Below, in pieces: positions 44,408 through 64,000 of a stretch of 64,000 nt of DNA. This DNA comes from Flavonifractor sp. An112. GTDB lineage: Bacteria > Bacillota > Clostridia > Oscillospirales > Oscillospiraceae. How positions within the stretch are numbered: the first letter of the stretch is position 1; the number at the start of each line of letters is the position of its first letter. The stretch lies in contig NZ_NFLU01000005.1 in assembly GCF_002161085.1 (NCBI RefSeq), forward strand, positions 1-64,000, given 5' to 3'. The position numbers and the translations under genes were made by a program. Under the pieces are notes generated by a model that did not search any database, was not told the origin of the DNA, and saw only the letters and a list, made by a program, of their open reading frames with translations.

Positions 44408-44757
44408 TTAAGGCTCTTTCAAAAACTGTTCCACCGCCTGGGTGGCCTGGGTGAGGAAGTCCCCCTCCATGTCCAGCCACAGCACGTCCTTATCCCGGCT
44501 GAACCACTGGACCTGCCGTTTGGCAAAGCGCTTGATGGCCCGGCCCAGCTCGTCCTTCAGAGCGTCCAGAGAGGGGATCTCCCCCTTCAGGTAGCGAAGG
44601 ATATAGCGGTACTCCAGCCCCAGACCCTCCAGGAACTCGTCGGTGGCCCCGGCTTCCCGCAGACCGGCCACCTCCTCGATCATGCCCGCATCAATGCGGG
44701 CCTGGAGCCGGTCGTCGATGCGCTGACATACTGTTTCCCGGGGGAAGTTCACCCCCA
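44408..44757 (-). pseudogene. Displaced 3' fragment of miaA
   Basis: About 350 bp nearly identical in protein sequence to the C-terminal quarter of the intact miaA domain at 45934-46290 (both contain RIDAGMIEEVAGLREAGATD, GLGLEYRYILRYLKGEIPSL and AIKRFAKRQVQWF). The DNA has many scattered substitutions, mostly silent, so it is not a recent copy. Homology stops abruptly at about 44757, within LGVNFPR, and the upstream sequence is unrelated. It looks like a stranded gene end left by insertion of a foreign segment, or the scar of a recombination. Confidence 0.85.
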
Positions 44758-44856
44758 GTTTATTCCACCTAATTTTCCGGCTGCAGCCGTTTATTTTGTA
44801 AAATAAAGGTAGGAAACAGGAGGGCGCATTTGAGGGTTTCCGGCGGAAGAAATATG

Positions 44857-45175
44857 TTATGCAACCCAAATTTTGTACCCAAAGAAGTAGGGATAGTAGT
44901 CAAATTTCACAAAACGACCATTCGTATTCCAACCATCCATAACAAACAGGTATTTGGCGCCAGTGTTGCTTTCGGCATAACCGAAATTCATTACACAATG
45001 TCCTTCACCCTTATCAAAGATACTATCGTTGGTATGGAGCACAAGATGAATTGGACAATGATCTTTGAGAGCTGTTTGGTAAGTACTATAAGAAGAACCA
45101 TCGGAGAGCATCTTATATGACCAAGTTCCTTTGCCAGATGGCTCGCGGAAGAAAAAATGACAATAACTTTTTCAT
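44857..45175 (-). pseudogene. Degenerate secreted C39-like peptidase remnant
   Basis: ATG 45175 with AAAGGAG starts a signal-like MKKLLSFF. A frame change and an apparent internal deletion then lead to the last 84 codons of a papain-like C39-type domain: GEGHCVMNFGYAESNTGAKY and LFVMDGWNTNGRFVKFDYYP (conserved His and Asp/Asn context). The catalytic cysteine half is missing. Low GC compared with neighbours. A broken secreted peptidase or bacteriocin-type gene. Confidence 0.55.
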
Positions 45176-45933: not shown

Positions 45934-47286
45934 TTACTGGCCCTTCAAAAACCGCTCCACCGCCTGGGTGGCCTGGGTGAGGAAATCCCCCTCCATATCC
46001 AGCCACAGCACGTCGCGGTCCCGGTTGAACCACTGGACCTGCCGCTTGGCAAAGCGCTTGATGGCCCGGCCCAGCTCGTCCTTCAGAGCGTCCAGAGAGG
46101 GGATCTCCCCCTTCAGGTAGCGGAGGATGTAGCGGTACTCCAGCCCCAGGCCTTCCAGGAACTCGTCGGTGGCTCCAGCTTCCCGCAGACCGGCCACCTC
46201 CTCGATCATGCCCGCGTCAATGCGGACCTGGAGCCGGTCGTCGATGCGCTGACACACTTTGTCCCGGGGGAAATTCACCCCAAGCAGCAGGCAGCGGTAG
46301 CGGGGATGGGCCTGGGGGGCCTCCCAGCCGTCGGCCAGAGCCTTCTCCACCGAGCGTACCAGCCGCTGGTGGTTGTTTTCCTCCCCGTTGGCCAGGGTGA
46401 CCCCCGTCTTTTCCCGCAGGATGGCGTACAGCTCTGCGGCAGTCTTGCCCTCCAGTTCGGCCCGCAGAGCGGGGTCGGGGGTGGCGTCGGTGAAGGCAAA
46501 GCCCTCAGTCACAGCCCGGACGTACAGTCCGGAGCCGCCCACCAGGAAGGGGACCTTGCCCCGGGCGATGATGTCGTCGATAGCGGCGTAGGCCCCCACC
46601 TGGAAATCGGCCACCGAGTAGGGCTGGTTGGGGGCCACCACGTCCAGCATATGGTGGGGCACACCGTCCATCTCCTCCTCGGTCACCTTGCCGGTGCCCA
46701 GGTCCAGGCCGGTATACACCTGACGGGAGTCGGCGGACACGATCTCGCCGCCAAAGCGCTTGGCCAGTTCCACCCCCAGGCCGCTCTTGCCGCAGGCGGT
46801 GGTGCCCAGCACCACCACCAGCTTGGGCAGCTTCTCCCCGGTCAGGGCGGCCAGCAGGGCGGAGCAGCCGGCGTACACGTCCCGCCAGGTGGCCTCAAAG
46901 TTGCCGGAGTACCAGGGGTCGGAGATATCCCGGTCCTCTCCAATATAGGACAGCAGTGCCTTGACCTTGCCGTCCGGGTCGCCCCCAAAGAGCCGGCGCA
47001 TATTCCGCAGGTTGGCGCTGTCCATGCCCAGAAACAGGTCCCACCGGCCATAGTCCGCCGCCGTCAGCTGGCGGGCGGCGTGGCCGGAGCAGCGGATGCC
47101 ATGTTCGGCCAGCTTCCGCCGGGCGGGGGGATAGACCGGATTGCCGATCTCCTCGGCGCTGGTGGCGGCGGAGGCGATGGTGAACTGATCCTCCAGCCCC
47201 GCCTTTTTGACCAGATCCTTCATGACAAACTCAGCCATAGGGCTGCGGCAGATGTTGCCGTGACATACAAAAAGCAGTTTTTTCAT
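45934..47286 (-). CDS. miaA: Fused low-molecular-weight protein tyrosine phosphatase - tRNA dimethylallyltransferase MiaA
   Basis: One 450-residue frame from ATG 47286 (GGGAGGA upstream) joins two enzymes. Residues 1-150 are a low-molecular-weight tyrosine phosphatase: KLLFVCHGNICRSPMAEFVM with the C-x5-R-S loop, and ISDPWYSGNFEATW with the general-acid Asp. Residues about 152-450 are MiaA, which transfers a dimethylallyl group to A37 of tRNAs: Walker A VVVLGTTACGKSGLGVEL (GTTACGKS in place of the usual GPTASGKS), SADSRQVYTGLDLGTGKV, PHHMLDVV and the tRNA-binding C-terminus. No stop or start lies at the junction (AALTGEKLPKL). Both active sites are intact. Confidence 0.92.
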   Translation of the reverse strand: MKKLLFVCHGNICRSPMAEFVMKDLVKKAGLEDQFTIASAATSAEEIGNPVYPPARRKLAEHGIRCSGHAARQLTAADYGRWDLFLGMDSANLRNMRRLFGGDPDGKVKALLSYIGEDRDISDPWYSGNFEATWRDVYAGCSALLAALTGEKLPKLVVVLGTTACGKSGLGVELAKRFGGEIVSADSRQVYTGLDLGTGKVTEEEMDGVPHHMLDVVAPNQPYSVADFQVGAYAAIDDIIARGKVPFLVGGSGLYVRAVTEGFAFTDATPDPALRAELEGKTAAELYAILREKTGVTLANGEENNHQRLVRSVEKALADGWEAPQAHPRYRCLLLGVNFPRDKVCQRIDDRLQVRIDAGMIEEVAGLREAGATDEFLEGLGLEYRYILRYLKGEIPSLDALKDELGRAIKRFAKRQVQWFNRDRDVLWLDMEGDFLTQATQAVERFLKGQ

Positions 47287-47352
47287 GCTGTCCTCCCGGG
47301 GGCGGCGTAACTGCGCCGCAATGTAAACCCATTCTACCACATTTTCGGCCTG

Positions 47353-47381
47353 AAAAAAAGCAGGCGCGTTTCCGCGCCTGC
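47353..47381 (-). terminator. Terminator of the 89-residue gene
   Basis: GCAGGCGCG (47360-47368) pairs with CGCGCCTGC just downstream. On the minus strand TTTTTTT follows, directly beyond the stop of the gene at 47387. Confidence 0.75.
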
Positions 47382-47386
47382 CGTGT

Positions 47387-47656
47387 TTACAGCAGAATAG
47401 CCAGCAGCCAGCATACCGTGGCCCCCAGGGCACCGCCGGCGGCATACACCGGGGCGGGGATCTTCCGGCACACCCGCCGCCAGCCGGAGGCGCGTTTGAG
47501 ATAGCCGTCGGCAGCCCGGCGGGCCTCCTGGAGCACCGCCTCGGCGGAGGCCCCCTTGCCGAAGGCATCCTCTTTTACAATAAAAATGGCCTGCTCAAAA
47601 AATCGGGGATCGGGGGATTTTACCACAATGACCTGCCGGGATACGCCCTGTACCAC
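47387..47656 (-). CDS. Small protein with C-terminal membrane anchor
   Basis: 89 residues from GTG 47656, chosen because AGGAAAGGA stands upstream; a TTG at 47695 would add 13 residues. The N-terminal domain reads QVIVVKSPDPRFFEQAIFIV + KEDA, the middle is an Ala/Glu/Arg helix (EAVLQEARRAADGYLKR), and the C-terminal membrane segment is PVYAAGGALGATVCWLLAIL. Tail-anchored small proteins with the 'VVVKSPDPRFFEQAIFIV' start are seen in related Firmicutes, but I know of no function. Confidence 0.7.
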   Translation of the reverse strand: MVQGVSRQVIVVKSPDPRFFEQAIFIVKEDAFGKGASAEAVLQEARRAADGYLKRASGWRRVCRKIPAPVYAAGGALGATVCWLLAILL

Positions 47657-49058: not shown

Positions 49059-49571
49059 TCAGGGCTCCATGTGGCGGCCCAGAAAGCCGGCGATGGTCTG
49101 AACCAGCTTGTACTGGGTTTCGCTGTCGTGGAGAGCTCCCTCGGTACCGGCAAAGAGTACGCAGCCCAGCACATCCCCTTCCGAGAGGATAGGGGCGGCG
49201 CAGGACACCAGATAGGCGTCGTTGCCCTCGCACACGGGGATGGGAGCGGAGCCCTCCTTGTGTTGGTAGATCTGGCGGCCCTCCATGATCTGCTCCAGAG
49301 CGGGAGAGATCTGCTTGTCGGCCAGATCCCGCCGTCCGCTGCCGGCCACGGCGATGCAGCTGTCCCGGTCGGTGATGACAGCAATCTCGCCGGTGGTCTT
49401 GTTCAGGGTCTCGCACATATGGCCGGCAAAGTCCCCCAGCCCGCCCATGAGGGAGTACTTTTTAAAGATGACGCCGCCGTCCTTGTCAGTGTAGATCTCC
49501 AGGGGATCGCCCTCCCGGATCCGCATGGTGCGGCGGATCTCCTTGGGGATCACGATGCGCCCCAGATCGTC
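49059..49571 (-). pseudogene. spoVT: spoVT, stage V sporulation regulator, 5' end cut off by a mobile element
   Basis: From codon 11 onward this is a normal SpoVT: DDLGRIVIPKEIRRTMRIRE (AbrB-type swapped-hairpin DNA-binding domain), GDPLEIYTDKDGGVIFKKYS, then a GAF domain to the end (TIAGFLGRHMEP). The first ten codons, normally MKATGIVRRI, are absent. Immediately before GAC (D11) there is a TAG (49572-49574) and unrelated AT-rich DNA. GTG 49553 could start a 164-residue protein lacking the first DNA-binding strand. The missing 5' part must lie beyond the other end of the inserted element, outside the window. Confidence 0.88.
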
Positions 49572-49783
49572 CTAATGTGTCAACTAAAACATAAAATGTA
49601 ATTTATCCGCTTTAGTTGCGCCTGTTTTACACAATATATCAGAATATCCTCGACTTTTCAATCAACTTTATTACCAGAACCGCACGCTTAAATTCTTTGA
49701 AAATCATGAGGAAAAATGTTCGTTTTTCTGATTGCCAAGTGAACAAAAAGAAGGACTCATGGATTGTCATGAGTCCTTCTTTT
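49572..49783. other. Left end of the spoVT element with terminator
   Basis: The end DNA contains an inverted CAACTAAA (49580-49587) / TTTAGTTG pair around 49580-49620, a candidate recombinase-binding arrangement. A strong terminator (49747-49761 with 49768-49782, loop GATTGT) closes the recombinase operon. No gene is supported here. Confidence 0.5.
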
Positions 49784-49786
49784 CAT

Positions 49787-50197
49787 TTACTTGTGCCGAA
49801 GTGTTCTGCTGTGACGGCGCTGATAATAGTCCTTCCTTAGGGCATCAAAAACCATCGTATATCCTGAGAGAACGTCTCCAGACTCACCAGAAGAAAAGAC
49901 CTTGACTCCGGAATTTTCGAGGGTCTCCGAAAGCGACAATGCGAGTGCGGTCTCCCGTACAAGTCTGCTGACACCATGCACGGCTACGGCTTCAAACCGA
50001 TTCTGATTTATTTCACTGAGCAGAGCCTGAAGACCGGGACGGTCCAGCGTATTTCCTGGAGCCATATCTTGAAACACCGCCACAACCTCATGTTCCTGTT
50101 CCCTTGCCCATTCCCTCAGCCTGGTTTCCTGCCATAACAGCACATTGTTATCATTCTGGTCCGCACTTGCGACTCTCAAATATAGGGCAACCTTCAT
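49787..50197 (-). CDS. Small serine recombinase (resolvase-domain only)
   Basis: 136 residues consisting of the resolvase catalytic domain alone. The N-terminus MKVALYLRVASADQNDNNVL carries the nucleophile context (LRVAS, Ser11), followed by AVFQDMAPGNTLDRPGLQAL and VSRLVRETALALSLSETLEN (in place of the usual D-L-S-R-L-x-R). It lacks the long C-terminal DNA-binding part of large recombinases. It overlaps the upstream recombinase by 4 nt. It may be an accessory partner or directionality factor, or a decayed recombinase. Confidence 0.75.
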   Translation of the reverse strand: MKVALYLRVASADQNDNNVLLWQETRLREWAREQEHEVVAVFQDMAPGNTLDRPGLQALLSEINQNRFEAVAVHGVSRLVRETALALSLSETLENSGVKVFSSGESGDVLSGYTMVFDALRKDYYQRRHSRTLRHK

Positions 50198-51786
50198 ATA
50201 GCTCTCCTTTCTTCCTTGTGGAATTTTGCGAACAGATCTTCAAATTTCCAGCGCACCTCAATATGATGGTTGCTGAATACGGTTACCCGGTCGATTGCAT
50301 CATACATACTCGCTTTGAATGCCTCACCGCTCACCGTGAAGGCCGATAAATACTTTTCCGCTTCACCCTGGACTGCACGTCGTTCAGACTGTTCCTCTTG
50401 CTCTCGCTGCCGCTCTGCTTCGATTTTTGCACGCTCCGTCTGTAGTTCAGAAATGCGGTCTGCCAGCGCAGCTTTCCGCTGGGAAAACAGGTCACGGCTC
50501 ATTTCTCCGCTCCGGTATTCCTCGTAGTATTGGATCTTCCGGGCATTCTGCCGGGCAATTTCCTGGTCAATTTTCTCCAATCGGTTATCCCAGTTGATCT
50601 TAGGATGTTGCTGAAAGGCAGCCTGGATGTTCCGGGCCTGCTCTCCCATCAGAACAAGCTGTGTACGGTAGATGGGGAGGAGAACCGCTTCCAGGTCGGT
50701 CTTACTCCACCGGATTCCGGCGCAGGCGGCCTGCTCCTGATAAAGCTGAGTATCGCAGGCAAAGTACGTGTCCAGCCCAAATGATTTTCGCAGCTTGCGT
50801 CCGCAATGGCCGCAAAAGAACACGCTGTCAGAACCATCCGGCGGTTTACGCCCATAGTTTTTCACGGTCCTGATTTGTGCCTGGGCTGCTTCATATTCCG
50901 CTTTAGTCACGATGGCCTCGTGTGTCCCTTCTGTGACAATCCACTCTTCCTGAGGCACTCTTCGTTGGTTTCGGTCTCGCATATAGCGACTTTCTCTGGT
51001 GTGATTGGTCATAACCCCGGTATACTTGATATTTCGGAGGATATTGAGGACGGTCACATGGGACCACATGAGATCCCGTTCCCGGCAGGCCGGCTTGAGG
51101 CGGTGTTGCTTATACTCCAGGGGGGTAAGCACGCCGCGCGCATTGAGTTCCTTGGCAATTTGCGTGGTGCTTTTCCCAGCTATGATGGAGAGAAATATTT
51201 CACGGACGATCGGTGCCGTCTCTTTATCCGGCACCATCTGGTGCTTATCCGATGGGTGCTTCTGGTATCCGTATGGCACATGGTTCACAAAACGTCCCTC
51301 CTTCATACGCGCTTGCATGGCGGAGCGGACTTTTATGGAAAGGTCTCGGCTGTAATTCTCATACATGAAGTTCCGAAAGGCAACATCCATGCCGCCGGTC
51401 ATACCGATATATTTCTGACTGTCATAACCATCATTGACGGCAATGACACGCACGCCCAGAAATGGGAATATGTGTTCGAGGTAGTCACCCACATCCAAGT
51501 AGTTCCGCCCAAAACGAGACAGATCCTTTACAACGATGCAGGTCACCTCTCCCTGGCGGGCCGCTTCGATCATAGCCTGGAATTGGGGACGGTCGGTATT
51601 GGTACCAGTCAATCCGTCGTCAATAAATTCAAGGACAGAATAGGCAGACAACTCGCCACTTCCTCGCAGGTATTCCATGATGACTTTTCGCTGATTTTCA
51701 ATGGATTGGCTCTGGTTGGCCAAGCCGTGAGCACGGTTAAAATCTTCCAGCGAGGTTCGGTAATAGGCCGCAAGTCTTTCCGCCAC
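50194..51786 (-). CDS. Large serine recombinase 1
   Basis: 530 residues. The resolvase domain has ERLAAYYRTSLEDFNRAHGL (nucleophile Ser12), IDDGLTGTNTDRPQFQAMIE and VVKDLSRFGRNYLDVGDYLE. The Recombinase domain (about 165-270) reads PYGYQKHP ... REIFLSIIAGKSTTQIAKEL. A zinc ribbon (FFCGHCGRKL ... CAGIRWSK) and a coiled-coil (RISELQTERAKIEAERQREQ) complete the TndX/TnpX-type architecture. It is the third recombinase of the operon and overlaps the next gene. Confidence 0.93.
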   Translation of the reverse strand: MAERLAAYYRTSLEDFNRAHGLANQSQSIENQRKVIMEYLRGSGELSAYSVLEFIDDGLTGTNTDRPQFQAMIEAARQGEVTCIVVKDLSRFGRNYLDVGDYLEHIFPFLGVRVIAVNDGYDSQKYIGMTGGMDVAFRNFMYENYSRDLSIKVRSAMQARMKEGRFVNHVPYGYQKHPSDKHQMVPDKETAPIVREIFLSIIAGKSTTQIAKELNARGVLTPLEYKQHRLKPACRERDLMWSHVTVLNILRNIKYTGVMTNHTRESRYMRDRNQRRVPQEEWIVTEGTHEAIVTKAEYEAAQAQIRTVKNYGRKPPDGSDSVFFCGHCGRKLRKSFGLDTYFACDTQLYQEQAACAGIRWSKTDLEAVLLPIYRTQLVLMGEQARNIQAAFQQHPKINWDNRLEKIDQEIARQNARKIQYYEEYRSGEMSRDLFSQRKAALADRISELQTERAKIEAERQREQEEQSERRAVQGEAEKYLSAFTVSGEAFKASMYDAIDRVTVFSNHHIEVRWKFEDLFAKFHKEERRAI

Positions 51787-51787
51787 C

Positions 51788-53494
51788 TCACGCCACCTCC
51801 TCTCGGAGTATTTTGTGTTGGGCCTGAAGGGCTTTCAGTTCATTGTCAAAGAGGAACGTGATTTTGATGGAACCATCCGCCCAGACTTGAATCCGGTCCA
51901 CAAAAGCAGAAATCAGCTCTTGTGAGATCACTTTGGCGTATCGGTATTCCTCGAACCGCTTTTCCCACTCTTTTGATTTCTCAACGGCTTGGGCAGCTTT
52001 GTCCTCAGGGCACTCCAGACGTTCCACCTGCTCTCTCAGGGCCTCGATTTCCTTTTGGTACTGTTCCCGTGCCATAACACATTCTTCCTTTGTCAGGAGT
52101 CCGGATTTGTAATCCTCGTACAGTGCCAGGGCATATCCTTGCTTTCGCTTGATTTCCTGCTGAAGTTTTTGTATCTCACTTTTGGCCTGTGTGTCATGGT
52201 CACGATCCGACGCTCTCTTTTCTGCCAGTTTCATAAGAACCGCCTGGGTATTGCAGAAGAGTTCAATCTGCACCCGCAGTGCCTGTAAAACGGCGGCATC
52301 CAAGTCATCACAGCGGATCGACTTTTTGGTGCATCGCAGTTCGCGATGTTCCTCATAGGTCGGGCAGATATAAACGAAATATGCCTTTTTTCGGTCATGG
52401 CTTATGCTCCGGTAGAGCTTCAGTTGGGTCCCACAGTCTGCGCATACCAGCTTCTCGCGGTATGGATTGCTGCGTGTAGGCAGGTGGCTGCAAGTACCAT
52501 AAGCTGCCTTATAAGCCTTTGCGTTGGCCTCATTTACCGCCTGCACCCGATCAAAAAGCTCTTGTGATACGATAGGCGCATGGGTGTTATAGACGATATC
52601 CCACTCTGACTCAGGGGTGCGGTGGATAGGTATTCCACGAATCAGGCTTGCTGTGCATTTTCCCTGTGCCAGATGTCCGATATAAGCGATATTGCGGAGA
52701 ATATCAGAAAGAGCATGGCGGTTCCACAATAGTGCGCTGCCTTTTTTATTGTTGTTGGTAATGATCCCGTGCTCAAACCGATACCGGCCCGGAGATGGGA
52801 TATCCCGCTCATTAAGCATCCGGGCGATGGTCCCGATACCGAGCCCCTGGGCACGCCACTCATAAATCTGCTGGATCACCGGCGCTGTTTCCGGATCGAC
52901 CAAGAGACGATTCTTGTTTTCGGGGTCCTTGCGATAGCCGTGGGGGGCATAATTACCGATATAATCGCCATTTTGACGTTTGGCTTTCAGCGCTGCGCCG
53001 GATTTCATGGAGATATCCTTTGCATAATAGTCGTTTACAATATTTTTAACGGAGACCGTCAGTTCGTCCCGGGAGTGGATGTTGTGGGTATCGTAGTTGT
53101 CATTGACTGAAATAAACCGAATGCCCAGATTCGGGCAGATACGCTCCAGAAAATTGCCGGTCTCGATATAGTTTCTTCCCAGGCGGGATAAGTCCTTGAC
53201 AATGATGCAGTCGATTTTACCAGCCTTTACATCATCCATCAGTCGCTCCCACTGAGGACGTTCAAAGCTGACCCCAGAATAGCCGTTGTCCAGGTATTGG
53301 TCCACCAGTTTCAGCTCTGAGTGCTCCGAGAGGTACTGCTCCATGATCTTGACCTGGCTTTCAATGGGGTCTCCATCCGCTTTGCCATTATCAAGCACAG
53401 ACAGGCGGGCATATAGTCCAGTGTTGAATGTGATGGATGTTTCCTGGGGGGATGCTTCCACTGCCACAGGTGCCGTTCTCTTTTTTCTTGCCAT
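51788..53494 (-). CDS. Large serine recombinase 2
   Basis: 568 residues. A basic N-terminal leader (MARKKRTAPVAVEASPQ) precedes the resolvase domain (TGLYARLSVLDNGKADGDPI with nucleophile Ser, LDNGYSGVSFERPQWERLMD, VVKDLSRLGRNYIETGNFLE). Then come the Recombinase domain (APHGYRKDPENKNRLLVDPE), the zinc ribbon (KLVCADCGTQLKLYRS ... RCTKKSIRCDDLD) and a C-terminal coiled coil. Spacing to its neighbours is 1-2 nt. It is distinct from the other two paralogues along its whole length, so the set did not arise by recent duplication. Confidence 0.93.
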   Translation of the reverse strand: MARKKRTAPVAVEASPQETSITFNTGLYARLSVLDNGKADGDPIESQVKIMEQYLSEHSELKLVDQYLDNGYSGVSFERPQWERLMDDVKAGKIDCIIVKDLSRLGRNYIETGNFLERICPNLGIRFISVNDNYDTHNIHSRDELTVSVKNIVNDYYAKDISMKSGAALKAKRQNGDYIGNYAPHGYRKDPENKNRLLVDPETAPVIQQIYEWRAQGLGIGTIARMLNERDIPSPGRYRFEHGIITNNNKKGSALLWNRHALSDILRNIAYIGHLAQGKCTASLIRGIPIHRTPESEWDIVYNTHAPIVSQELFDRVQAVNEANAKAYKAAYGTCSHLPTRSNPYREKLVCADCGTQLKLYRSISHDRKKAYFVYICPTYEEHRELRCTKKSIRCDDLDAAVLQALRVQIELFCNTQAVLMKLAEKRASDRDHDTQAKSEIQKLQQEIKRKQGYALALYEDYKSGLLTKEECVMAREQYQKEIEALREQVERLECPEDKAAQAVEKSKEWEKRFEEYRYAKVISQELISAFVDRIQVWADGSIKITFLFDNELKALQAQHKILREEVA

Positions 53495-53496
53495 GG

Positions 53497-55164
53497 TCAG
53501 CTCACCTCCGCTTCAGGAACACTCTTTGTTGCATCCTGTTCCCGCAGGAACTCTACCATATTGGCAAGCTGATCCTGATAGCGGAGAACCACCCGGATTT
53601 TCTTATCGGGATACAGCTCTATCTTATCCACCAGATTGACAACCGAGGCACGGCTCAGGCTCGGCAGATTCTGATATTCCCGAAACTGGGAGAGCCAGCC
53701 ACTTCGATTTGCCACCCCGTCCTGGATCATGGCCCGTTCTTTCTTTAATTTTCCAATGTCCTGCTCAATCTCGCTGATTTGCTGGGAGTAGCCGTCTTTC
53801 ATCTGGAGGAACTCCTCCTGAGAGATCAAACCGTCCTGTAGGTCCTCATATATGCTGACCTTCATCGTCCGGCACTTCTGCATCTCGGCCGATTTTACCT
53901 CAATAGCCTTATCCAGACGGGCTGTCTCCCGGTGTTCCCAGGCCAGTTCCTCAATCTGGTTCAGGGCCTTCTCCATATTCAAAATCAACTTAATCTCAGA
54001 TTGTAGAATGGCAAGGACAGTGCTCTCCAGTTCCTTTTCCGAGATCCTGCGCTTTTCGCAGCTACCATCCTTTTTGGCATTTGGGCAGGTGTAATAGGCA
54101 TATTTTGCCCCATTGTTGGTTACGGAGTACCTTTTTGCTAGGGTTCCGCAGGTTCCACAATAGACCCGACCAGACAGAGGATAGACGGTATCGGAGCCGG
54201 ATGCCCGGCGGCTGTCCTCCTGCATCAGCTTCTGGACCAGTTCAAATTCCCGCACCTGGATGATCGGCTCATGGGCATGTTCAATCCGGCTCCAATCCTG
54301 TTCGTCTTTTATGATGGTGTGCTTTACCTTGTAGTTTGGTGTGGTACGCTTTCCCTGGATCAGTACGCCGGTATAGACCTCATTGGTGAGAATCCGGATT
54401 ACCGATTTTGGGCTCCACTTACTGCGGGCATTCGTTTGAAAGGCGGTCTTATAATTGATACCCAGCGAGCGCTTGTGCTCGGACGGGGACAATACACCGC
54501 GGGCATTTAGCTTTTCCGCGATAGTCACCGGGCTCATGCCCTCGACCTTCCAGCGGAAAATGTCCCGGACGACTTCACCTGCTACTTCATCTATGACAAG
54601 CTGAGTCTTATCGTCCGGGGCCCGCAGGTATCCATAGGGGGTGTAGTTGGAGACAAATTCTCCGTTTCTTCTCCGGCTTTCAAAGTTGCTCCGTACCTTG
54701 ATGGAGATATCCCGGCAGTATGAATCATTGAGAAAATTCTTGATGGGGACGATCAAGCTGTCGCTTGTGGAGAATTTGAGGCTATCGTAATTGTCGTTGA
54801 CAGCGATAAAACGTACCCCGAGCTGAGGAAAGATCTTCTCAATGTAGCGGCCTGCATCAATATACTCTCGGCCAAACCGGGACAGGTCCTTGACGATGAT
54901 ACAGTTAATCTTTCCCGCCTTCACCGCTTCCATCATTTTTTGAAATTGGGGGCGCTCAAAATTGGTTCCCGTATAGCCATCGTCGGTATACTCCGCAACC
55001 AGTTCAATGTCTGGCTGCTGCGCCACAAACCGCTCGATGATTTTTCTCTGGCTGGAGATACTGTCGCTCTCCGCTTTTTTGCTGGAAAAAGAAAAGTCGC
55101 CGTCTTCCTTAGAGAGTCTAAGGTAGTCGGCGGCTTTATAAATCTTCTCTGATGAGATTAGCAT
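53497..55164 (-). CDS. Large serine recombinase 3
   Basis: 555 residues and first of the operon. The resolvase domain reads KAADYLRLSKEDGDFSFSSK (nucleophile Ser), TDDGYTGTNFERPQFQKMME and VKDLSRFGREYIDAGRYIEK. The Recombinase domain contains PYGYLRAPDDKTQLVIDEVA, the zinc ribbon GRVYCGTCGTLAKRYSVTNN ... CPNAKKDGSCEKRRI, followed by a coiled coil. All catalytic residues visible (Ser, D-L-S-R-x-x-R) are intact. One of the three is presumably the integrase that entered spoVT. Confidence 0.93.
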   Translation of the reverse strand: MLISSEKIYKAADYLRLSKEDGDFSFSSKKAESDSISSQRKIIERFVAQQPDIELVAEYTDDGYTGTNFERPQFQKMMEAVKAGKINCIIVKDLSRFGREYIDAGRYIEKIFPQLGVRFIAVNDNYDSLKFSTSDSLIVPIKNFLNDSYCRDISIKVRSNFESRRRNGEFVSNYTPYGYLRAPDDKTQLVIDEVAGEVVRDIFRWKVEGMSPVTIAEKLNARGVLSPSEHKRSLGINYKTAFQTNARSKWSPKSVIRILTNEVYTGVLIQGKRTTPNYKVKHTIIKDEQDWSRIEHAHEPIIQVREFELVQKLMQEDSRRASGSDTVYPLSGRVYCGTCGTLAKRYSVTNNGAKYAYYTCPNAKKDGSCEKRRISEKELESTVLAILQSEIKLILNMEKALNQIEELAWEHRETARLDKAIEVKSAEMQKCRTMKVSIYEDLQDGLISQEEFLQMKDGYSQQISEIEQDIGKLKKERAMIQDGVANRSGWLSQFREYQNLPSLSRASVVNLVDKIELYPDKKIRVVLRYQDQLANMVEFLREQDATKSVPEAEVS

Positions 55165-55291
55165 AGCTACCGCTCCTGTCGCAATATTGGTGGCCGGACC
55201 ACCGAATGACGACCGGAGTTTCGCTGATTTTGTCCATGCTTATCTTATCACAGCCTCCTCAGAAAGTCCAGTCGCGTCTTGTGGTAAATCA

Positions 55292-55516
55292 TTACAGGAT
55301 CGACAGCATATCCGCAAAGCAATCATTCAGAGTAGCGCCCCCCTCCGTATAGGCTACGTTGACGACAACATTGCCCACTTTGAAACAGTAAGGGTTCTTG
55401 ATCTGCCGGAGGAACGAGCGGATGCGCTCTGGCTGTTCCAGGCCGCTGTCCAGCTTTACATCACGGATGTCTACCAACGGCTGCGAGTCCTTTTTATTCT
55501 GCTGTTCCTGCTTCAT
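55292..55516 (-). CDS. Small element-borne protein, DUF6870-like
   Basis: 74 residues from ATG 55516 (GAGGTGG upstream; a start 12 nt earlier has no site). The sequence DIRDVKLDSGLEQPERIRSF, LRQIKNPYCFKVGNVVVNVA, YTEGGATLNDCFADMLSIL is typical of short genes next to serine-recombinase modules. A C-terminal 'F-K-V-G-x-x-V-V-x-V-x-Y-x-x-x-G-x-x-L' pattern is conserved in that group. Function unknown. It is separated from the recombinase operon by about 130 nt. Confidence 0.7.
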   Translation of the reverse strand: MKQEQQNKKDSQPLVDIRDVKLDSGLEQPERIRSFLRQIKNPYCFKVGNVVVNVAYTEGGATLNDCFADMLSIL

Positions 55517-55849
55517 GATCACAACCACCTCACAGTTATCATTACCAATTTTTGGGCTGCTATACTTTGGCGGAAAAATGGCAATACAAAAGGGACCGCC
55601 CTATTACGGCGATCCCTATTTGCTCACAATGACATGATAACAGAAAAGTATGGTACATACAAGTCCACACTCAGTGCTTGTTTTATTGTAGAGAGCTGAT
55701 ATAAATGTTGCATAGCTTATTGCACACTGTTGGTTTCATGGCTCTGAAAATGCAATAAGGAACTATTTCCATGTCGCACGACAACTAGCAAGAATCAATC
55801 CGTCAATAATTTGCTTCACTTCTGAATCTTATTGAGGTTTTGCTTCGGG

Positions 55850-57196
55850 TTAATCTTCAGATTCTGTTTCTGAATCACAGTCCTGGTCAGTTCTAAGTCT
55901 ATAAATCTGACTTTTATTACTTTCTACAGCTGTAACCGTCATAACCGCTGCCCTAAACATTTTCATGATCTTATTCTCTGCAATAGTCTCTAAACTCTCT
56001 TTCGGTTTACCAATAGTCCAGAAATAAGTCAAAACTCCTTTTACCGCACTGTTTGACGGCCACAAAGGACCTATTCGACAAATTGGGTGACGTCCTGACA
56101 GAAACGTTTTACGCCTACTTTTATCAATTGAAGATGCTTTAAGCAATACAACAGCACAACACAAACAGGGTACGCGGAGTCCGCCAATATTATCTATATC
56201 AAATGGAGACCCTCTAGACAATAATTCTAAAACTATTCTCACCTCGGCATGCATCCCATCTGTTTCCGATATTTCTCGATATTTATCGGTGTCTGGAGGA
56301 TCAACTGTCCGTATATGGAAGGTATCATAATCGCTGAAAGCTTCAAGCTCCGAGATATGAGCCTTTGACCTTGGTTTTCTGGCATCAGCAGACTTAAATA
56401 ACTTTTTTAAGTCGCCCAAAGTTTTGTATTCAGCAACTAATTTTTTAATACTTTTCAGCGTTGTGTTCAAATTTGCACTTACAATAATTGTTTTGCTGGG
56501 TCCATCAAAATAACATTGAATTTCATCCGATGCTTTTACGAGATTTGCAAATACTGTTGACACCCACCGCATATGTTGCTTTGTTTCATAACCTTTATAA
56601 GATGTTGGAGTATGCGCAAATACTACCCTACCATCAAATTGAAGTCTACGCGCAAGTGTAGAGGAAGTTGTAGTCGGCCCGGAACCCCAATATGGAAGCT
56701 CTGTTTCTCTGGGGGCGCGTAAGTAGATGAGGCTTGGGACATGTCCGTGTTTTATAGGTACTACACTTTCCACAGAACCATCATCAGCTTCCACAGAACC
56801 ATCATCAGCTCGTTTTTTAATAATCTCACCCAAAGTTTTCTTTAACTTTGCCGAAACAGTACCAGCAATTGTGTCCAAAGGAATAATAGTTCTAGGCTTT
56901 TTAGCTTTCCTTTCGACTTTATCATCTGGCGAATCTGATTTCGGGCGCACTGCACCCTTTTTAGGAACCGGTTGATCCATTTTTTGTATTACATACTGAG
57001 TATTATTGAGCATTGAAACGGAGTCAATCTTTCCCGCTGATGCCATGTTTTCGTAATATGCTGAATCATTTACCGGCAGTCCGTTAATCCAGGTGGTCGG
57101 CCGCACGATGCCCTGTTTCTGCTGCACCACATGGCCCAGCTCATGCCGCAGGTACCGCTCCTGGCCAGGCGCGATATGTACCTGGGGGATCTGCGT
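55850..57196 (-). pseudogene. 5'-truncated DUF4157-deaminase toxin gene
   Basis: The open frame, including the codons upstream of GTG 57130, begins in the middle of a DUF4157 domain: QVHIAPGQERYLRHELGHVV with HELGH, then QQKQGIVRPTTWINGLPVND. A long linker with a duplicated ADDGSVE unit follows. The C-terminal region has the deaminase-fold marks GMHAEVRIVLELLSRG (His-Ala-Glu) and VPCLCCAVVLL (P-C-x-x-C-like), so the payload is probably a nucleic-acid or nucleotide deaminase. DUF4157 proteins often carry toxins of contractile injection or secretion systems. The N-terminus, promoter and any immunity gene are missing; GC is low. About 427-448 residues remain. Confidence 0.65.
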
Positions 57197-57642
57197 ACAC
57201 CGACTATGACAACGGGTATGCGGTAGTTTCCTTTTTGAAGGGCTGGGAAAAAGAATATGAGCCGATGGTGATTGGGAACTCGACCCTCTGCCCCTGCTGC
57301 GGAGAGCCGACAGCGCACAATAATAGCCTCACATGTGGGCACTGCGAACCGGTTGTGCTTTGCAAGGAGTGCGGTCAGGAAATTCCGAAGGGCGATGCCC
57401 AATATGTGGATGGGGCCTATTACTGCCACACCTGCCGGCCCGTCTGTTCCAAGTGCGGAGCCGTCGTCCAGCACGAAGCGCACGCTGCTATTGACCATGA
57501 GGGCAACCAAGTCATTCTATGTGACGACTGCTATGCGGAAGCGGCTGTACATTGTCAGGAGTGCGGTATCTACGGAATCTGCAAAAATCTGGCGGCTATC
57601 CGGTTCTGTCCATGGACGGACGTTATGGCCGACGCCGCATAA
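57196..57642 (+). pseudogene. 5'-truncated zinc-ribbon protein gene
   Basis: The frame is open from about 57184 and shows meaningful sequence from YTDYDNGYAVVSFLKGWEKE. TTG 57235 is the first possible start. It carries four to five Cys pairs (CPCCGE, CGHCEPVVLCKECGQ, CHTCRPVCSKCG, CDDC, CQECG), suggesting several zinc ribbons. The 5' end collides head to head with the broken toxin gene at about 57195, so both were cut by one rearrangement. The downstream peptidase gene follows after 12 nt. Function unknown. Confidence 0.6.
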
Positions 57643-57654
57643 TGGAGGAAAGCT

Positions 57655-58668
57655 ATGAGGTATGAAAATCTAAGCCTGGAGCAAATCCTACGTTTTACAC
57701 AGGCTGAATTGAAAGCGGCACTCGCCGCAGAGCTGGAAAGCAGAGGATACTCCCCCGTTGTCCAAGAAGGATACCTTTACGCCCCAGGCACACTGCCGGT
57801 ATTGCTGGTGGCCCATCTGGATACCGTACACCATGAGCCGGTGCGGGATATTTGCCGCTCCGGGGACGGGACGATCCTGATGTCTCCCCAGGGGATCGGC
57901 GGAGATGACCGGGCCGGCGTCTATATGGCCCTGCGGATTTTGGAACAGGCCCGCTGCCATGTCTTGTTCTGCGAGGACGAGGAGACCGGCGGCCAAGGGG
58001 CCCGGAAGTTCACCGCAAGCGACCTTGCCCCGGACGTCAATTACATCGTTGAGATGGATCGCCGTGGGCATGATGACGCCGTTTTTTACAGGTGCGACAA
58101 CCGGGAGTTCGTGGATTTTGTCACGGAATTTGGCTTTCAGGAGGCATACGGCAGCTTCAGCGATATTTCGGTCATCGCCCCCTATCTGGGGATTGCCGCC
58201 GTCAATATCAGCGCCGGGTACTACAACGAACACCGTCCCCATGAGCATATCAATCTGGCCCATGTGGAGCACAACATCGCCCGTATTCTGGAGATGGTGA
58301 TGACCCCGTCCGGACAGTTTGAGTACATTGAGCGGGAAACCTATGGCTTTGGTACCTTTGATAGTCAGATCCGTCTGTGGGATCATTTTCCCAGTGTGGA
58401 GAGCACACGGGATGATGGAAAGATGTTGATGCCGGTGCCGGAGACCGCCTATGTGGAGGTCAACGGCAGGCAGGTAGAAAACGGCCTGGCCCACTTTATG
58501 GACAAGCAGGGCATTGTCTATGACTATCTGGAGGAACTGGATGTAGCGGTACGCGCAAACTATACGAAAGCGTATGAGGAGGACGGAACGCCCTTGAAAT
58601 TTTCCAAGAGCGCCGCAACGAGGATTAAAGTTGTCTCGCTGGAGGAAGCGATGGCGAGATTAGTATGA
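57655..58668 (+). CDS. M20/M42-like zinc metallopeptidase of the element
   Basis: 337 residues. Di-zinc peptidase motifs occur in order: LLVAHLDTVHHEP (HLDT, about residue 55), IGGDDRAGVYMALRILEQ (about 80-97), LFCEDEETGGQGARKF (catalytic Glu pair, about 105), IVEMDRRGHDD and YYNEHRPHEHINLAHVEH (late His). The C-terminal about 110 residues are an extra domain without a recognised fold. There is no signal peptide, so it acts in the cytoplasm. Genes of this type recur on Firmicute integrative elements; their substrate is unknown. Confidence 0.82.
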   Translation: MRYENLSLEQILRFTQAELKAALAAELESRGYSPVVQEGYLYAPGTLPVLLVAHLDTVHHEPVRDICRSGDGTILMSPQGIGGDDRAGVYMALRILEQARCHVLFCEDEETGGQGARKFTASDLAPDVNYIVEMDRRGHDDAVFYRCDNREFVDFVTEFGFQEAYGSFSDISVIAPYLGIAAVNISAGYYNEHRPHEHINLAHVEHNIARILEMVMTPSGQFEYIERETYGFGTFDSQIRLWDHFPSVESTRDDGKMLMPVPETAYVEVNGRQVENGLAHFMDKQGIVYDYLEELDVAVRANYTKAYEEDGTPLKFSKSAATRIKVVSLEEAMARLV

Positions 58669-58674
58669 TGCACA

Positions 58675-58717
58675 AAAGGGAGCGTTCAGCCGTGAGGCCG
58701 AACGCTCCCCTTTTTTG
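58675..58717 (+). terminator. Terminator after the metallopeptidase gene
   Basis: A GC-rich stem, GGGAGCGTTC plus GCC with its complement (about 58678-58712, one mismatch, loop GTGA), is followed by TTTTTT. Confidence 0.8.
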
Positions 58718-58786
58718 CATTTTTGTTGCGTTTATGCGTATTAAAATCGTAAAGGACAGGTATAGAGCAAAAAGGAGGAAATGATA

Positions 58787-59701
58787 ATGCTCGTATCTGT
58801 CGATCATGGAAATAAACAGGTCAAAACCACCCACGCTCTCTGTGCGCCGTTTACCTCCGGCCTGCGGGAGAGCGCCACGCCGCCCTTTGGGGGCGATGTT
58901 CTCCAGTACGGAGGAAAATACTACACCCTTGTGGACGAGCGCATCCCCTACCGGCGAGATAAGACGGAGGACGAGCGGTTTTTCGTTCTCACCCTGTTTG
59001 CCGTTGCCAGGGAGATCGAGGCCAGAGGGGCTTATTCCATGGGAACGATTCCCGTTCAGCTCGCGGTGGGTCTGCCGCCGGCCCACTATGGGGCGCAGTA
59101 TCAGAAGTTTGAGCAATACTTCATGGGCCGTGGAGAAGTTTGCTTTTCCCTCAATCAGAAAGCGTTTTCCATTGAGATTACCTATGCGCTGTGCTTCCCC
59201 CAAGCGTATGCCGCCGCCGTGACCATGTTCCAATCTCTGGGCAGCGCCCCCAAGGTGCTGGTGGTGGATATCGGCGGGTTTACCGCCGACTATCTCTTTA
59301 TCAAACAGGGCAAGGCCCAGCTTGGGACCTGTGATTCCTTGGAAAACGGTGTGATCGTCCTCTACAACCGCATCCGCTCTAAGGTCAACGGGGACTTTGA
59401 TATGCTGCTGGAGGAGGGGGATATTGACGCCATTCTCAGGGGCCAAGGAAGTTATGCCCCGGAAGTGCGGCAGCTGGTGGAGCAGGAGACAGCGGCATTT
59501 GTCAGCGACCTGTTCAACGCCCTCCGGGAGCGGATGATCGACCTGCGCTCCGGCCAGGTGGTGTTCATCGGCGGCGGCTCCATCCTGCTGCGCCGGTTTA
59601 TCGAGCAGTCCGGCAAAGTGAGGCAGGCCCTCTTTGTGGACGACATCAAGGCCAACGCCAAAGGTTATGAGATCCTCTACCAAGTGGCCGCAAGAAGGTG
59701 A
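58787..59701 (+). CDS. ParM/StbA-like actin-type segregation ATPase
   Basis: 304 residues from ATG 58787 (AAGGAGG 8 nt upstream; ATG 58781 is too close to the site). Actin-fold motifs are the phosphate-1 loop LVSVDHGNKQVKTT at the N-terminus, the phosphate-2 loop VLVVDIGGFTADYLFIKQG (about 160-178) and the adenosine motif VVFIGGGSILLRRFIEQSG (about 262-280). ParM-type filaments push plasmid or element copies apart. It overlaps the next gene (GTGA), the arrangement of a parM-parR pair. Confidence 0.85.
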   Translation: MLVSVDHGNKQVKTTHALCAPFTSGLRESATPPFGGDVLQYGGKYYTLVDERIPYRRDKTEDERFFVLTLFAVAREIEARGAYSMGTIPVQLAVGLPPAHYGAQYQKFEQYFMGRGEVCFSLNQKAFSIEITYALCFPQAYAAAVTMFQSLGSAPKVLVVDIGGFTADYLFIKQGKAQLGTCDSLENGVIVLYNRIRSKVNGDFDMLLEEGDIDAILRGQGSYAPEVRQLVEQETAAFVSDLFNALRERMIDLRSGQVVFIGGGSILLRRFIEQSGKVRQALFVDDIKANAKGYEILYQVAARR

Positions 59702-60090
59702 TCCCTGTGGCCGAGAAAAAGTCGCTGTATCGGTTCACCATCGGCTTCAATCCCGGCGATCCGGCCCACCGGCAGGTGGCGGAGCTGCTGAACCGGCAGG
59801 GCCGCCGAAAGGCGCAGTTCCTTGTGAACGCCATCCTCCATTATATCCACTGTTCGGAAACGCCGGAGATTCCCGAGACAGCCGAGCCGCCCACCGGGAT
59901 GGGCCGGGCGGAGATGGAGGCCCTGGTGGTGCGGATCTTGGAGGAGCGGGGGTACCGAAAAGCCGGGGAGAACCAGTCTGATGGACAGGCGACCCAGGAG
60001 CTGCCGGAACCAGTTTTGGGCGGAGAGCTGGACGCCGCCGGGTTTGCGGCCATAGCGGATACGCTGGCAGCGTTCCGGGGGAAAGAATAA
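59698..60090 (+). CDS. ParR-like partition adaptor
   Basis: 130 residues from GTG 59698, overlapping the ParM stop by 4 nt. The N-terminal part (KKSLYRFTIGFNPGDPAHRQ, VAELLNRQGRRKAQFLVNAI) is a ribbon-helix-helix-type DNA-binding pattern. The rest is an acidic Pro-rich linker and a C-terminal helix that would contact the filament (AAGFAAIADTLAAFRGK). A centromere-like repeat array is not obvious upstream (58718-58786 is short). Confidence 0.72.
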   Translation: MIPVAEKKSLYRFTIGFNPGDPAHRQVAELLNRQGRRKAQFLVNAILHYIHCSETPEIPETAEPPTGMGRAEMEALVVRILEERGYRKAGENQSDGQATQELPEPVLGGELDAAGFAAIADTLAAFRGKE

Positions 60091-60136
60091 AAGAGCGGGA
60101 AACATAGGACCGTTTTGGCCTTATGCTTCCCGCTCT
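60090..60136. terminator. Bidirectional terminator between parR-like and XRE genes
   Basis: AAGAGCGGGAA near 60091-60101 pairs with TTCCCGCTCTT (60126-60136), with a further inner pairing CATAAGG/CCTTATG. It overlaps the stop of the minus-strand XRE gene. Confidence 0.65.
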
Positions 60137-60453
60137 TCCAATGCGGTGATATATGCGTTTATCATATCCTCTAAATGCTGGTACTGAGAGGGGGTTAGTT
60201 TGGAGACCTTTTGGGAGAGAATATCATAGTCGCTTGACCCCACTTTGCCCATCAAGAGATAATCCGCGCTGATGTCCAAAGCGATACACAGCTTGATGAT
60301 GTTCTCCGGCCGCAGCCCCTTTTTCCCCGTTTCGGCGGTGGAAATGATTTGTGAGTTCATATCCGCACGCTCTGCCAGTTCTTCTTGGGTCAGCCGGAGC
60401 TGCTTTCTCCGAGCAACCAGGCGTTTTCCCATTTGATCCAGTAAATCATCCAT
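60121..60453 (-). CDS. XRE-family transcriptional regulator
   Basis: 110 residues from ATG 60453 (AGGAGGG upstream). A Cro/CI helix-turn-helix occupies residues about 8-62: RLVARRKQLRLTQEELAERA, DMNSQIISTAETGKKGLRPE, NIIKLCIALDISADYLLMG. A short C-terminal helix follows (KLTPSQYQHLEDMINAYITA). Probably a repressor of element genes. The upstream region to 60545 has repeated TAACGGCTTT / CGGCTAAAG / CCGCTACGG words that may be its operators. Confidence 0.88.
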   Translation of the reverse strand: MDDLLDQMGKRLVARRKQLRLTQEELAERADMNSQIISTAETGKKGLRPENIIKLCIALDISADYLLMGKVGSSDYDILSQKVSKLTPSQYQHLEDMINAYITALEEREA

Positions 60454-60716
60454 AGGCGACCCTCCTATGGACACTATTTTATCCGCTACGGCGTAAAAAA
60501 TTAACGGCTTTTAGATGGATTAAATCGGCTAAAGCGTATATAATAGAAAAAACGGCTGGCGACACGGATGTGAAACCAGTTTATTTTGCTTTATGAAAAG
60601 GGTGTCCAGTAGTTTTGGGGCGGCGGTACCCTGGGATAGAAATGCGGGCTGGTGGAAACCTTCTTCTTCAAAAATCAGGAGAGAGGTATTCCGTCTCTCT
60701 CCTGATTCAAATTGTA
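60454..60716. promoter_or_regulatory. Regulatory gap with XRE operator-like words and a terminator
   Basis: Related words ATCCGCTACGG, TTAACGGCTTTTAG and ATCGGCTAAAGCG (about 60480-60536) lie just upstream of the XRE gene, followed by TATAAT on the plus strand at about 60540. A terminator for the convergent alarmone-synthetase gene is clear: a 12-bp stem, 60673-60684 with 60696-60707. No gene is supported in 60545-60670. Confidence 0.45.
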
Positions 60717-61514
60717 CTATATCGGTAAATCCAATTTCCGCAGCTTATCCAGTAAGTCATTTTCAACAGATCGGTCTGATGCCATTTCCAGTTTCCGTCG
60801 GATATGTTGCATCTCAGAATCAATCTCAGAGATTGTGTCTGCACAGTTCCGCAGCCTTTGGACAATTTCCTGCTGTTCAGGGATTTCCTGCTTATACTTT
60901 AATTGATGCTCCAGGCTGGCCCAAAAATCCATGGCGATGGTACGGATCTGCACTTCGACCGGAATCTGCTTCTTTTGATCTGCAAAGTAGACAGGCACAC
61001 TGACTACTAAGTGTAAGCTTCGGTATCCGTTCGGTTTTGGGTTGGAAATATAGTCCTTTTTCTTCAAGAGAATAACATCGTCCTGTTGAGTCAGCGCATC
61101 AGCCAGCAAATAAATATCATCAATATAAGAACAAATTACCCGTACCCCCGCAATGTCCTGGATATGCTCTTCAATATTTTCCAGTGTAGGTTTTAACTCT
61201 TTCCGAAATAGCTTTTCCAACACACTGGCATTGCTCTTGAGCCGGGTGTTGATAGAATGGATTGGGTTGCTACGGTTCCGAATCTTAAATTCATTGTCCA
61301 ATGTCTCAAATTTGACTTGTACATTTCGCATGGCGCAGGAATACATCATCATTCGTTCTCTGTAGCCTACCAGAGTGTCGGTCAACTTCACTGCCTGCTG
61401 GAATAGGAAATACTCAACGGATTCGGGAGATGCGGGAAGTGAACCGTCTGCTCTGTATTCCAACCATTTTTGTATGGTCTCGTTATCCAGCACTTCAAAG
61501 AGCGGCTGTTCCAT
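60717..61514 (-). CDS. Small alarmone synthetase (RelA/SpoT synthetase domain)
   Basis: 265 residues holding only the (p)ppGpp synthetase domain with flanking helices. Motifs in order: FKIRNRSNPIHSINTRLKSN, HIQDIAGVRVICSYIDDIY, KDYISNPKPNGYRSLHLVVS, VEVQIRTIAMDFWASLEHQL and KYKQEIPE. There is no HD hydrolase, TGS or ACT domain, so it belongs to the RelP/RelQ-like group. Such enzymes make alarmones, and some mobile-element versions are toxins. It is divergent from the SLOG-family gene 127 bp away. Confidence 0.92.
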   Translation of the reverse strand: MEQPLFEVLDNETIQKWLEYRADGSLPASPESVEYFLFQQAVKLTDTLVGYRERMMMYSCAMRNVQVKFETLDNEFKIRNRSNPIHSINTRLKSNASVLEKLFRKELKPTLENIEEHIQDIAGVRVICSYIDDIYLLADALTQQDDVILLKKKDYISNPKPNGYRSLHLVVSVPVYFADQKKQIPVEVQIRTIAMDFWASLEHQLKYKQEIPEQQEIVQRLRNCADTISEIDSEMQHIRRKLEMASDRSVENDLLDKLRKLDLPI

Positions 61515-61641
61515 TTACATAGTCCTCTCCTCTCCATAATTCTTTTGTCCTGTGTCCCATCGTCCATCTGTTGCGGCATTAAAAATAATATGTGATTGAT
61601 AGATTAAAAAAGTAAGAAAAATTGATTGGAAGGAGTTAAAT

Positions 61642-62184: not shown

Positions 62185-62637
62185 AACAAAGGACAACTCA
62201 TAATTGCCGATCCTTTTTAATAGCAGCCCTTTGTCGGGTAACGCTCCGCCTAACTACACGCAGGATACAAAGAAGTGCGGAAAGATTTTTTGCATGATTT
62301 CCGCTTGCTTTGTGCCGTTTCCGCTCCATTCCATTTGCTTTCCGTCACTCTCTAAAGCTGCTATTTCCACGTGTTCCGCACCGCACTGTGGCTGAAAATG
62401 TGGTCAAAAACGCTCCCTGTCCTTTGCCGGAGACGGTTCCCCGGCTGTGGTAGGGAGCCTCCTTATATCTCTGTATATCCGTTTTGCCAGTAAGAGCAGG
62501 ACAAGGCAGGCGATTTCCGTTGTCTGCGGCTCAAGATTTACGCCGCTGTAAACAAAGCAAGAATGTCCCCACGGGTATCATAAAACAGATAGGCTTCCTG
62601 ATTTCTCATGCAAAAGCGAAAGTTAAATCTAACCGTG
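62185..62637. other. Gap with short coding remnants
   Basis: No intact gene is supported. On the minus strand two short open pieces occur: one ends NQEAYLFYDTRGDILALF (about 62545-62615), and one contains TTEIACLVLLLLAKRIYRDI + RR (about 62405-62530), a single hydrophobic helix with a basic tail. They overlap in different frames and look like remnants of element genes. I cannot name them. Confidence 0.35.
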
Positions 62638-63243: not shown

Positions 63244-63244
63244 A

Positions 63245-63877: not shown

Positions 63878-63935
63878 AGACCTTTCTTCTCGCTGTTTCC
63901 CTTATTTTAGCACAGCTTCTGGAACTTATCATAGA

Positions 63936-63985: not shown

Positions 63986-64000
63986 CCTTGTATTCTCTGG

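Follow-up and report, generated by a model that had tools for sequence, protein, structure and literature searches.

What has separated a sporulation gene from its start, beside a row of serine recombinases, and can the separation be undone? These questions are raised by a locus of Flavonifractor sp. An112, whose genome (2.96 Mb in 41 contigs; hereafter G000) was compared with relatives in a genus set of 20 genomes and a family sample of 400, both including G000 itself. "The window" is the whole stretch of DNA analysed, 64,000 nucleotides at C37:1-64000. We consider it very probable that the truncated gene marks one end of a 66.9-kb triplet-serine-integrase element, inserted at a GA site in codon 11 of spoVT, whose insertion would be reversible and which would leave as a circle with its own maintenance genes.

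Anatomy of the split spoVT gene

An open frame of 170 codons on the minus strand encodes an AbrB-like domain lacking its first 10 residues, followed by a SpoVT_C domain. As the original prediction held, spoVT homology ends before residue D11, with a stop codon and element DNA beyond: LTH* stands in frame before D11, and TTTTAGTTGACACATTAG is the element sequence directly 5' of this frame. The cut falls between codons 10 and 11, at window position 49571, and the earliest in-frame ATG, GTG or TTG of the remaining part is a GTG at codon 17. The tandem serine recombinases expected about 200 bp away are present, the small recombinase gene ending 215 bp from the cut (at 49787) and three large ones following it. 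The features are listed below, in window positions unless a contig is named.

49059-49571, minus strand: 3' part of the split spoVT, from codon 11 to the stop, open frame (PF15714, E 1.2e-37; PF04014, E 1.1e-10)
49570-49571, minus strand: GA crossover core, with a second copy at the other element end (C37:116463-116464)
49572-64000, no strand assigned: part of the element inside the window, running on to C37:116462
49578-49583, minus strand: TTGACA, putative -35 half; its partner TATAAT lies at C37:116448-116453, and the pair is complete only with the element ends joined
49787-50197, minus strand: 136-aa protein with a resolvase N-terminal domain only (PF00239, 9.5e-18)
50194-51786, minus strand: external large serine recombinase, 530 aa (PF00239, PF07508)
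51788-53494, minus strand: middle large serine recombinase, 568 aa (PF00239, PF07508, PF13408)
53497-55164, minus strand: internal large serine recombinase, 555 aa (PF00239, PF07508, PF13408)
55292-55528, minus strand: 78-aa DUF6870 protein adjoining the triplet (PF21757, 4.7e-27)
58781-59701, plus strand: actin-like protein (PF17989 and PF21522)
59698-60090, plus strand: 130-aa frame after the actin-like gene, without a Pfam match
C37:116463-116494, minus strand: spoVT codons 10-1, the missing 5' part, found 66.9 kb from the 3' part on the same strand of the contig

Elsewhere in the window, the 3' end of miaA seems to be doubled, a partial copy at 44408-44869 being very like the end of the frame at 45934-47568 (by eye, from translations).

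The missing 5' fragment was sought at the far end of the element and was found there. A degenerate pattern for the spoVT start matched exactly at C37:116469-116494 (minus strand) and had no other exact match in the genome; allowing up to two mismatches added one further place, an AbrB-like gene. The missing start itself is ATGAAAGCGACTGGTATCGTGCGCCGGATCGA (C37:116494-116463, minus strand). With the element inserted, the 5' part follows its own ribosome site and reads MKATGIVRRIEE*, a 12-codon stub. The element body occupies C37:49572-116462 (66,891 bp) and is flanked by GA on both sides, as are both element ends in the genomes G339, G337 and G155. Sequence comparison indicates that recombination at the GA core would yield the uncut form of spoVT present in other species.

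A second full-length spoVT, which would have spoken against the original prediction, was not found in the G000 genome in a profile search with TIGR02851. The only other match to this model (E 4.1e-16, model positions 1-61) was rejected as a second copy, being the AbrB-like gene just mentioned, an 80-aa frame that adjoins an RsmI-like frame (named by eye). A join error at 49571 had been named as a possible artefact; it is unlikely because the same junction word, TTGACACA-N4-GACGAYCTGGG, recurs in G339, G337 and G155, and in a near form in G188. Although the genome is a draft, an assembly artefact can be dismissed with near certainty: the contig itself contains the reciprocal junction, 66.9 kb from the first and with the same GA, and these junctions recur in other, independent assemblies, which argue strongly against an artefact.

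Integration would thus leave a stub of 12 codons with the promoter side and ribosome site, and a 3' part of 170 codons. As the 3' part lacks its start, SpoVT would be off while the element is integrated, and the split gene is presumably non-functional.

Element genes and the sequence at the joined ends

A mechanical list of open reading frames gave 69 for the element, some certainly spurious, and 46 element proteins, not all from this list and one of them cut short by a locus end, were scanned against Pfam. RepA_N, ParA-type and ParB_N domains are encoded in the element, and the four recombinase frames are free of stops. The DUF6870 protein also occurs in other elements (83, 73 and 68% identity in G339, G337 and G155), and its place and conservation make it a candidate directionality factor. 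The actin-like protein is probably of the plasmid-partition type. Other cargo of the G000 copy amounts to roughly 45 kb. Its Pfam matches include RelA/SpoT, YpsA, cytidylate kinase, TetR regulators, an MMPL transporter, DegV, a mechanosensitive channel, an E1-E2 ATPase, the MCRA hydratase family, an ABC transporter, and VbhA and Fic. The element also contains a MetK fragment, the 232-aa N-terminal part of an S-adenosylmethionine synthetase (L004 16103-16801, i.e., C37:76103-76801), and a 629-aa protein with a SpoIID (Stage II sporulation protein) domain (L006 2480-4369, i.e., C37:102480-104369).

No conjugation gene was recognised among the 46 scanned proteins. Self-transfer of the G000 copy is unlikely because C37 carries no PF03432 relaxase, the three PF03432 matches of the genome all lying elsewhere. 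In G155, where ten proteins were scanned against Pfam, a TraG P-loop protein lies in the interval between sortase and RepA, together with a protein that falls just short of the PrgI cut-off and a weak match to NlpC/P60; in G000 this interval measures about 3 kb. Given this short interval and the lack of a recognised conjugation gene, the G000 copy looks like a relative of integrative and conjugative elements (ICEs) that has lost its transfer genes and kept both ends. The element appears to resemble triplet-serine-integrase integrative elements most closely, and not skin-type prophages, a naming based on architecture and best matches only.

Joining the element ends around GA creates a promoter-like sequence, TTGACA-CATTAGGAGGAATGAGA-TATAAT in G000 and G339, with one change in G337, and TTGACA-CAAGCCGACTAACGCGG-TATAAT in G155. 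Both hexamers and the 17-bp spacing are kept in all four elements with both ends read (G000, G339, G337 and G155), and remain unchanged between G155 and G000 while 9 of the 17 spacer positions differ. When element DNA was joined at random 200,000 times, a perfect promoter with a spacing of 16-18 never arose across the join. By the same definition, neither the 66.9-kb element nor 55.5 kb of G155 contains a perfect promoter, and the remaining 143.7 kb of C37 contains two. At the integrated junctions the best partner hexamers match only 1-3 of 6 places, so integration would destroy the joined-end promoter. For G000, neither an excised circle nor a rejoined spoVT was seen. The joined-end pattern had no match in viral_contigs, where circular or cut forms were likewise absent; plasmid records with a match numbered 389, all under 60% identity and the best listed at 34%.

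The joined-end sequence, which probably works as a promoter, points at parA, whose frame in G000 lies 193 bp from TATAAT. A search with ten parA-side proteins of G000 placed ParA nearest the element end in G000, G401, G337, G339 and G155. ParB comes next, over its length in G401 and G337, over 76 residues in G339 and over 147 residues at 29% in G155. Sortase, RepA_N and other genes follow further downstream on the parA strand in G000. In the integrated state the spoVT promoter would presumably read into parA.

In the mechanism that we favour, the recombinases would excise the element and rejoin spoVT codons 10 and 11 exactly, and the same event would bring TTGACA to TATAAT at a 17-bp spacing, giving a promoter towards parA, parB, the sortase gene and RepA_N. 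The element would then switch between integration, which keeps SpoVT off, and existence as a plasmid-like circle, during which both its maintenance genes and SpoVT are on. That excision does take place is what we infer from this arrangement.

Occupied and uncut sites in related genomes

Relatives of the external recombinase, taken at E<=1e-150, are rare: they were found in five of the 400 family genomes (G000, G339, G337, G155 and G188; 100, 88, 71, 52 and 48% identity), which belong to four genera. All five adjoin spoVT codon 11, which argues that this codon is a dedicated attachment site, with the GA dinucleotide as its likely core. In G188, the contig ends at about spoVT codon 33, and the fragment differs from the uncut spoVT of the same bin. 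The presence of an uncut and a cut spoVT in one bin was therefore rejected as evidence of excision, the difference between the two copies pointing to another strain or a binning mix. The 5' junction, on the codon 10 side, is present in G401 as well. Element sizes are 66.9 kb in G000, about 54 kb in G155 and about 153 kb in G337.

G000, G339 and G401 have almost the same sequence over about 190 bp at the parA-side end of the element, but the spoVT bases next to it are those of the respective host (CGGATCGA or CGTATCGA). Near-identical ends beside host-specific flanks indicate that the element family moves between species into one site. At the recombinase-side end, G000 and G339 agree in their last bases only, so that in this part neither element is a recent copy of the other. 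Movement between species is at least as compatible with a mobile element that has a dedicated site in spoVT as with a developmental switch.

A second insertion site in spoVT is used by other elements, which are inserted at GGCGACCC, i.e., codons 30-32. Its 5' junctions were found in G271, G393 and G339, and its 3' junctions in G339, G401, G403 and G406; both spoVT sites are occupied in G339. At the 3' junctions, the 3' part of spoVT is in frame with an upstream open reading frame and the whole is open in all four genomes, two of the frames reaching the contig start. The G401 fusion (L074 7519-9693) is a 724-aa frame with full serine recombinase domains and SpoVT_C, the SpoVT portion starting from about codon 30. 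Recombinase-SpoVT fusion frames also occur at L050, L052 and L053, and in G271, G393 and G339 SpoVT residues 1-32 are extended at the 5' junctions by short peptides that resemble one another. By eye, the codon 32 element carries polysaccharide-like genes (glycosyltransferase-, sugar transferase- and ligase-like) at L034 8172-15210 (Flavonifractor sp. An306) and L074 2148-7152 (G401). Cargo differs among the codon 32 elements, since the G271 DNA past the junction ends in coding DNA that looks, again by eye, phage-baseplate-like. With such DNA, and not a recombinase, at the end of contig C10, the contig ends of G271 do not support a mixture of cells with the element excised and integrated.

Intact spoVT genes, which had been sought in related genomes, are present in 11 of the 20 genus genomes and read RRIDDLG over the cut point. 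Seven others are cut, three of them at codon 11 (G000, G339 and G401), one is undecided (G232), and in one (G402, 89% complete) the gene was not found. G232 was dropped as an interruption and counted as undecided because its contigs break off within codons 33-36 and would read through. Over the stretch compared, both flanks in G000 equal the natural uncut allele of G400 save for one synonymous base. From codon 11 to the stop, G000 differs from G400 by 26 synonymous and 5 non-synonymous codons, and from the other four near relatives with an uncut spoVT by 29-41 synonymous and 12-14 non-synonymous codons. The ten pairs among these five relatives differ by 22-40 synonymous and 4-19 non-synonymous codons. 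This codon comparison with uncut alleles gave no sign of decay in the spoVT remnant; either the insertion is young or the gene is still in use.

A recent parasitic insertion that knocks out spoVT would account for several of these observations; sporulation of the strain would then be poor or absent until a chance loss of the element. The insertion is absent from G400, the nearest relative found, a lack of decay is what a young insertion should display, and the parA-side end is nearly identical across hosts. The same gene and codon are hit in four genera, however, which indicates a dedicated site and not a chance hit, and the four stop-free recombinase frames make reversal likely. We regard an accidental knock-out of this kind as a serious possibility, somewhat short of an even chance.

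Split sporulation genes and comparison with known systems

A scan with TIGR02980 detected a second split gene, which we take from its sequence to be sigG. It is split at about model position 64 in 11 of the 20 genus genomes, including G000, while the remaining nine have a whole match over the cut-off. The two parts in G000 are as follows (both L129, TIGR02980).

C20:407-754: N part of sigG
C20:7157-7648: C part of sigG

The 6.4-kb element between them encodes an Fe-alcohol dehydrogenase, an aldehyde ferredoxin oxidoreductase, ThiF and a 475-aa serine recombinase. In eight genomes the parts have the same orientation and lie 3.1-6.5 kb apart. The N part is inverted in G409, G232 and G403 (3.7 kb), so that in these genomes sigG could be joined by inversion and not by deletion. 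Identity of the sigG recombinase (66-98%) tracks the divergence of sigG, with a Spearman coefficient of 0.69 over 55 non-independent pairs; this pairwise correlation suggests long joint inheritance of element and gene. None of the 22 sigG halves contains a stop. Over the 55 pairs, synonymous and non-synonymous codon differences number 2144 and 406 in the C part, and 1412 and 213 in the N part, both halves being under purifying selection. In the family sample, where recombinase relatives were taken at E<=1e-120 and sigG parts were located by motif search, 21 of the 400 genomes have such a relative. The sigG C part lies within 1.5 kb in 15 of them, only the N part in three and neither in three; a TGA lies inside three of the 21 recombinase frames. 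A split kept for so long would be best explained by regular rejoining, i.e., by a working rearrangement.

The spoIVA gene is whole in 15 of the 20 genus genomes, G000 among them, and split at about model position 404 in G271 and G339. In G271 (C13; L168/L169), the parts lie 46 kb apart, with an open reading frame near the C part that is a serine recombinase by eye; in G339 (L170/L171), they are on two contigs, with junctions similar to those of G271. A split in G406 was not counted, as two matches overlapping by 25 model positions at a contig start probably reflect a contig break without insertion. The gene was not found in G401 and G404 (81 and 82% complete). Taking spoVT, sigG and spoIVA together, only G307, G404, G405, G407 and G408 are free of interruptions, and the other 15 of the 20 genus genomes have one or more. 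Among the matches listed from the openly licensed literature, by title and start of abstract, none concerned a split sigG, spoVT or spoIVA. Likewise, no openly licensed paper was found that links sigG, inversion and a serine recombinase in sporulation, that links spoVT with integrative serine-recombinase elements, or that deals with spoVT in Flavonifractor spores.

The original prediction drew a parallel between the split spoVT and skin. This is borne out by the position of the split (codon 11), by the 5' part found at the other end of the element and by the restorable frame, but the element is not of the skin class and the compartment differs. In the accessible parts of the sources, the SpoVT of B. 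subtilis is controlled by sigma-G and belongs to the forespore, and B. cereus requires SpoVT to complete sporulation (PMC5061766), while the developmental excisions for which a compartment is stated act in the mother cell (PMC5025042, PMC5595907). The skin parallel is therefore imperfect. If the insertion were a developmental switch, the element would be excised during sporulation, SpoVT would be made only in the developing forespore, and the circle would re-integrate after germination. Because the forespore is the germ line, the circle would have to be kept by Rep/Par, and forespore excision would be heritable, unlike the mother-cell cases. Clean restoration of spoVT is possible, the remnant does not decay (26 synonymous against 5 non-synonymous codons relative to G400), and replication and partition genes are preceded by a promoter-like sequence that appears only when the ends join. 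The conserved, stop-free sigG halves of the same genome, with a split common to 11 of the 20 genus genomes, and the whole spoIVA of G000 point the same way. Against this stand the mobility and rarity of the element family, the mother-cell setting of the known excisions, and the lack of decay, which may mean only that the insertion is young. A circle that has Rep and Par functions and can re-enter would resolve the problem of heritable excision, and for this reason we keep a developmental switch as a distinct minority possibility and do not rate it lower.

More broadly, we tentatively propose, at clearly less than an even chance, that the genus stores its sporulation programme in pieces, with sigG, spoVT and, in some species, spoIVA each split by a serine-recombinase element and rejoined in every round of sporulation. 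As sigG and spoVT act in the forespore, the rearrangement would take place in the germ line and would need a way back. In three genomes inversion would provide this for sigG; for spoVT it would be a partitioning circle that re-enters after germination and alone has the parAB promoter. As for the spoVT element itself, a single recombination event would activate a host regulator together with the maintenance genes of the element, a precise and testable link between a mobile element and spore formation. The split sigG would add a forespore sigma factor to the targets of gene-intervening elements, with heritable excision in contrast to the mother-cell cases, and split genes would make predictions of sporulation from gene content misleading in these bacteria.

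Our favoured reading, a reversible triplet-serine-integrase element at spoVT codon 11, can be compared with three known systems. Streptococcal ICEs with a serine-integrase triplet are described, in the available part of PMC4701971, as interrupting a gene, with a direct repeat of 2-8 bp, the targets named there being mutT, traG and hsdM. The spoVT element likewise has three large serine recombinases in tandem and in the same orientation at one end, and lies inside a gene with a repeat of 2 bp (GA). Its recombinases match their positional counterparts best in G339, G337 and G155 (external 88/71/52%, middle 86/64/55%, internal 93/71/61% identity, against 32-37% across positions). The element differs in its target, which is not among the three named in that portion of the source, in the G000 copy having no recognisable conjugation module, as needed for ICE status, and in a fourth, resolvase-only protein at the element end, which has matches in G339 and G337 and none in G155 at E 1e-5.

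The sporulation gene-intervening elements described in the accessible text of PMC5595907, PMC10747680 and PMC5025042 include skin (sigK), SPbeta (spsM), vfbin (spoVFB), gin (gerE) and yin (yabG). The split genes named there are sigK, spsM, spoVFB, spoVR, gerE and yabG, and not spoVT, sigG or spoIVA. As in these systems, a serine-recombinase element splits a sporulation gene whose frame precise excision would restore. The spoVT element differs in its target, a forespore regulator, in belonging to another class of element and in having three large recombinases, and its excision during sporulation is hypothetical.

The third system is the Tn4451/TnpX group, which uses a GA target dinucleotide. 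In the circular intermediate of Tn4451, the joined element ends reportedly form a promoter that serves the recombinase TnpX (Lyras and Rood 2000). The spoVT element resembles this system in its GA core and in having a complete promoter-like sequence only at its joined ends. Unlike that of Tn4451, the predicted promoter points not at a recombinase gene but at parA-parB, at the end opposite the recombinases.
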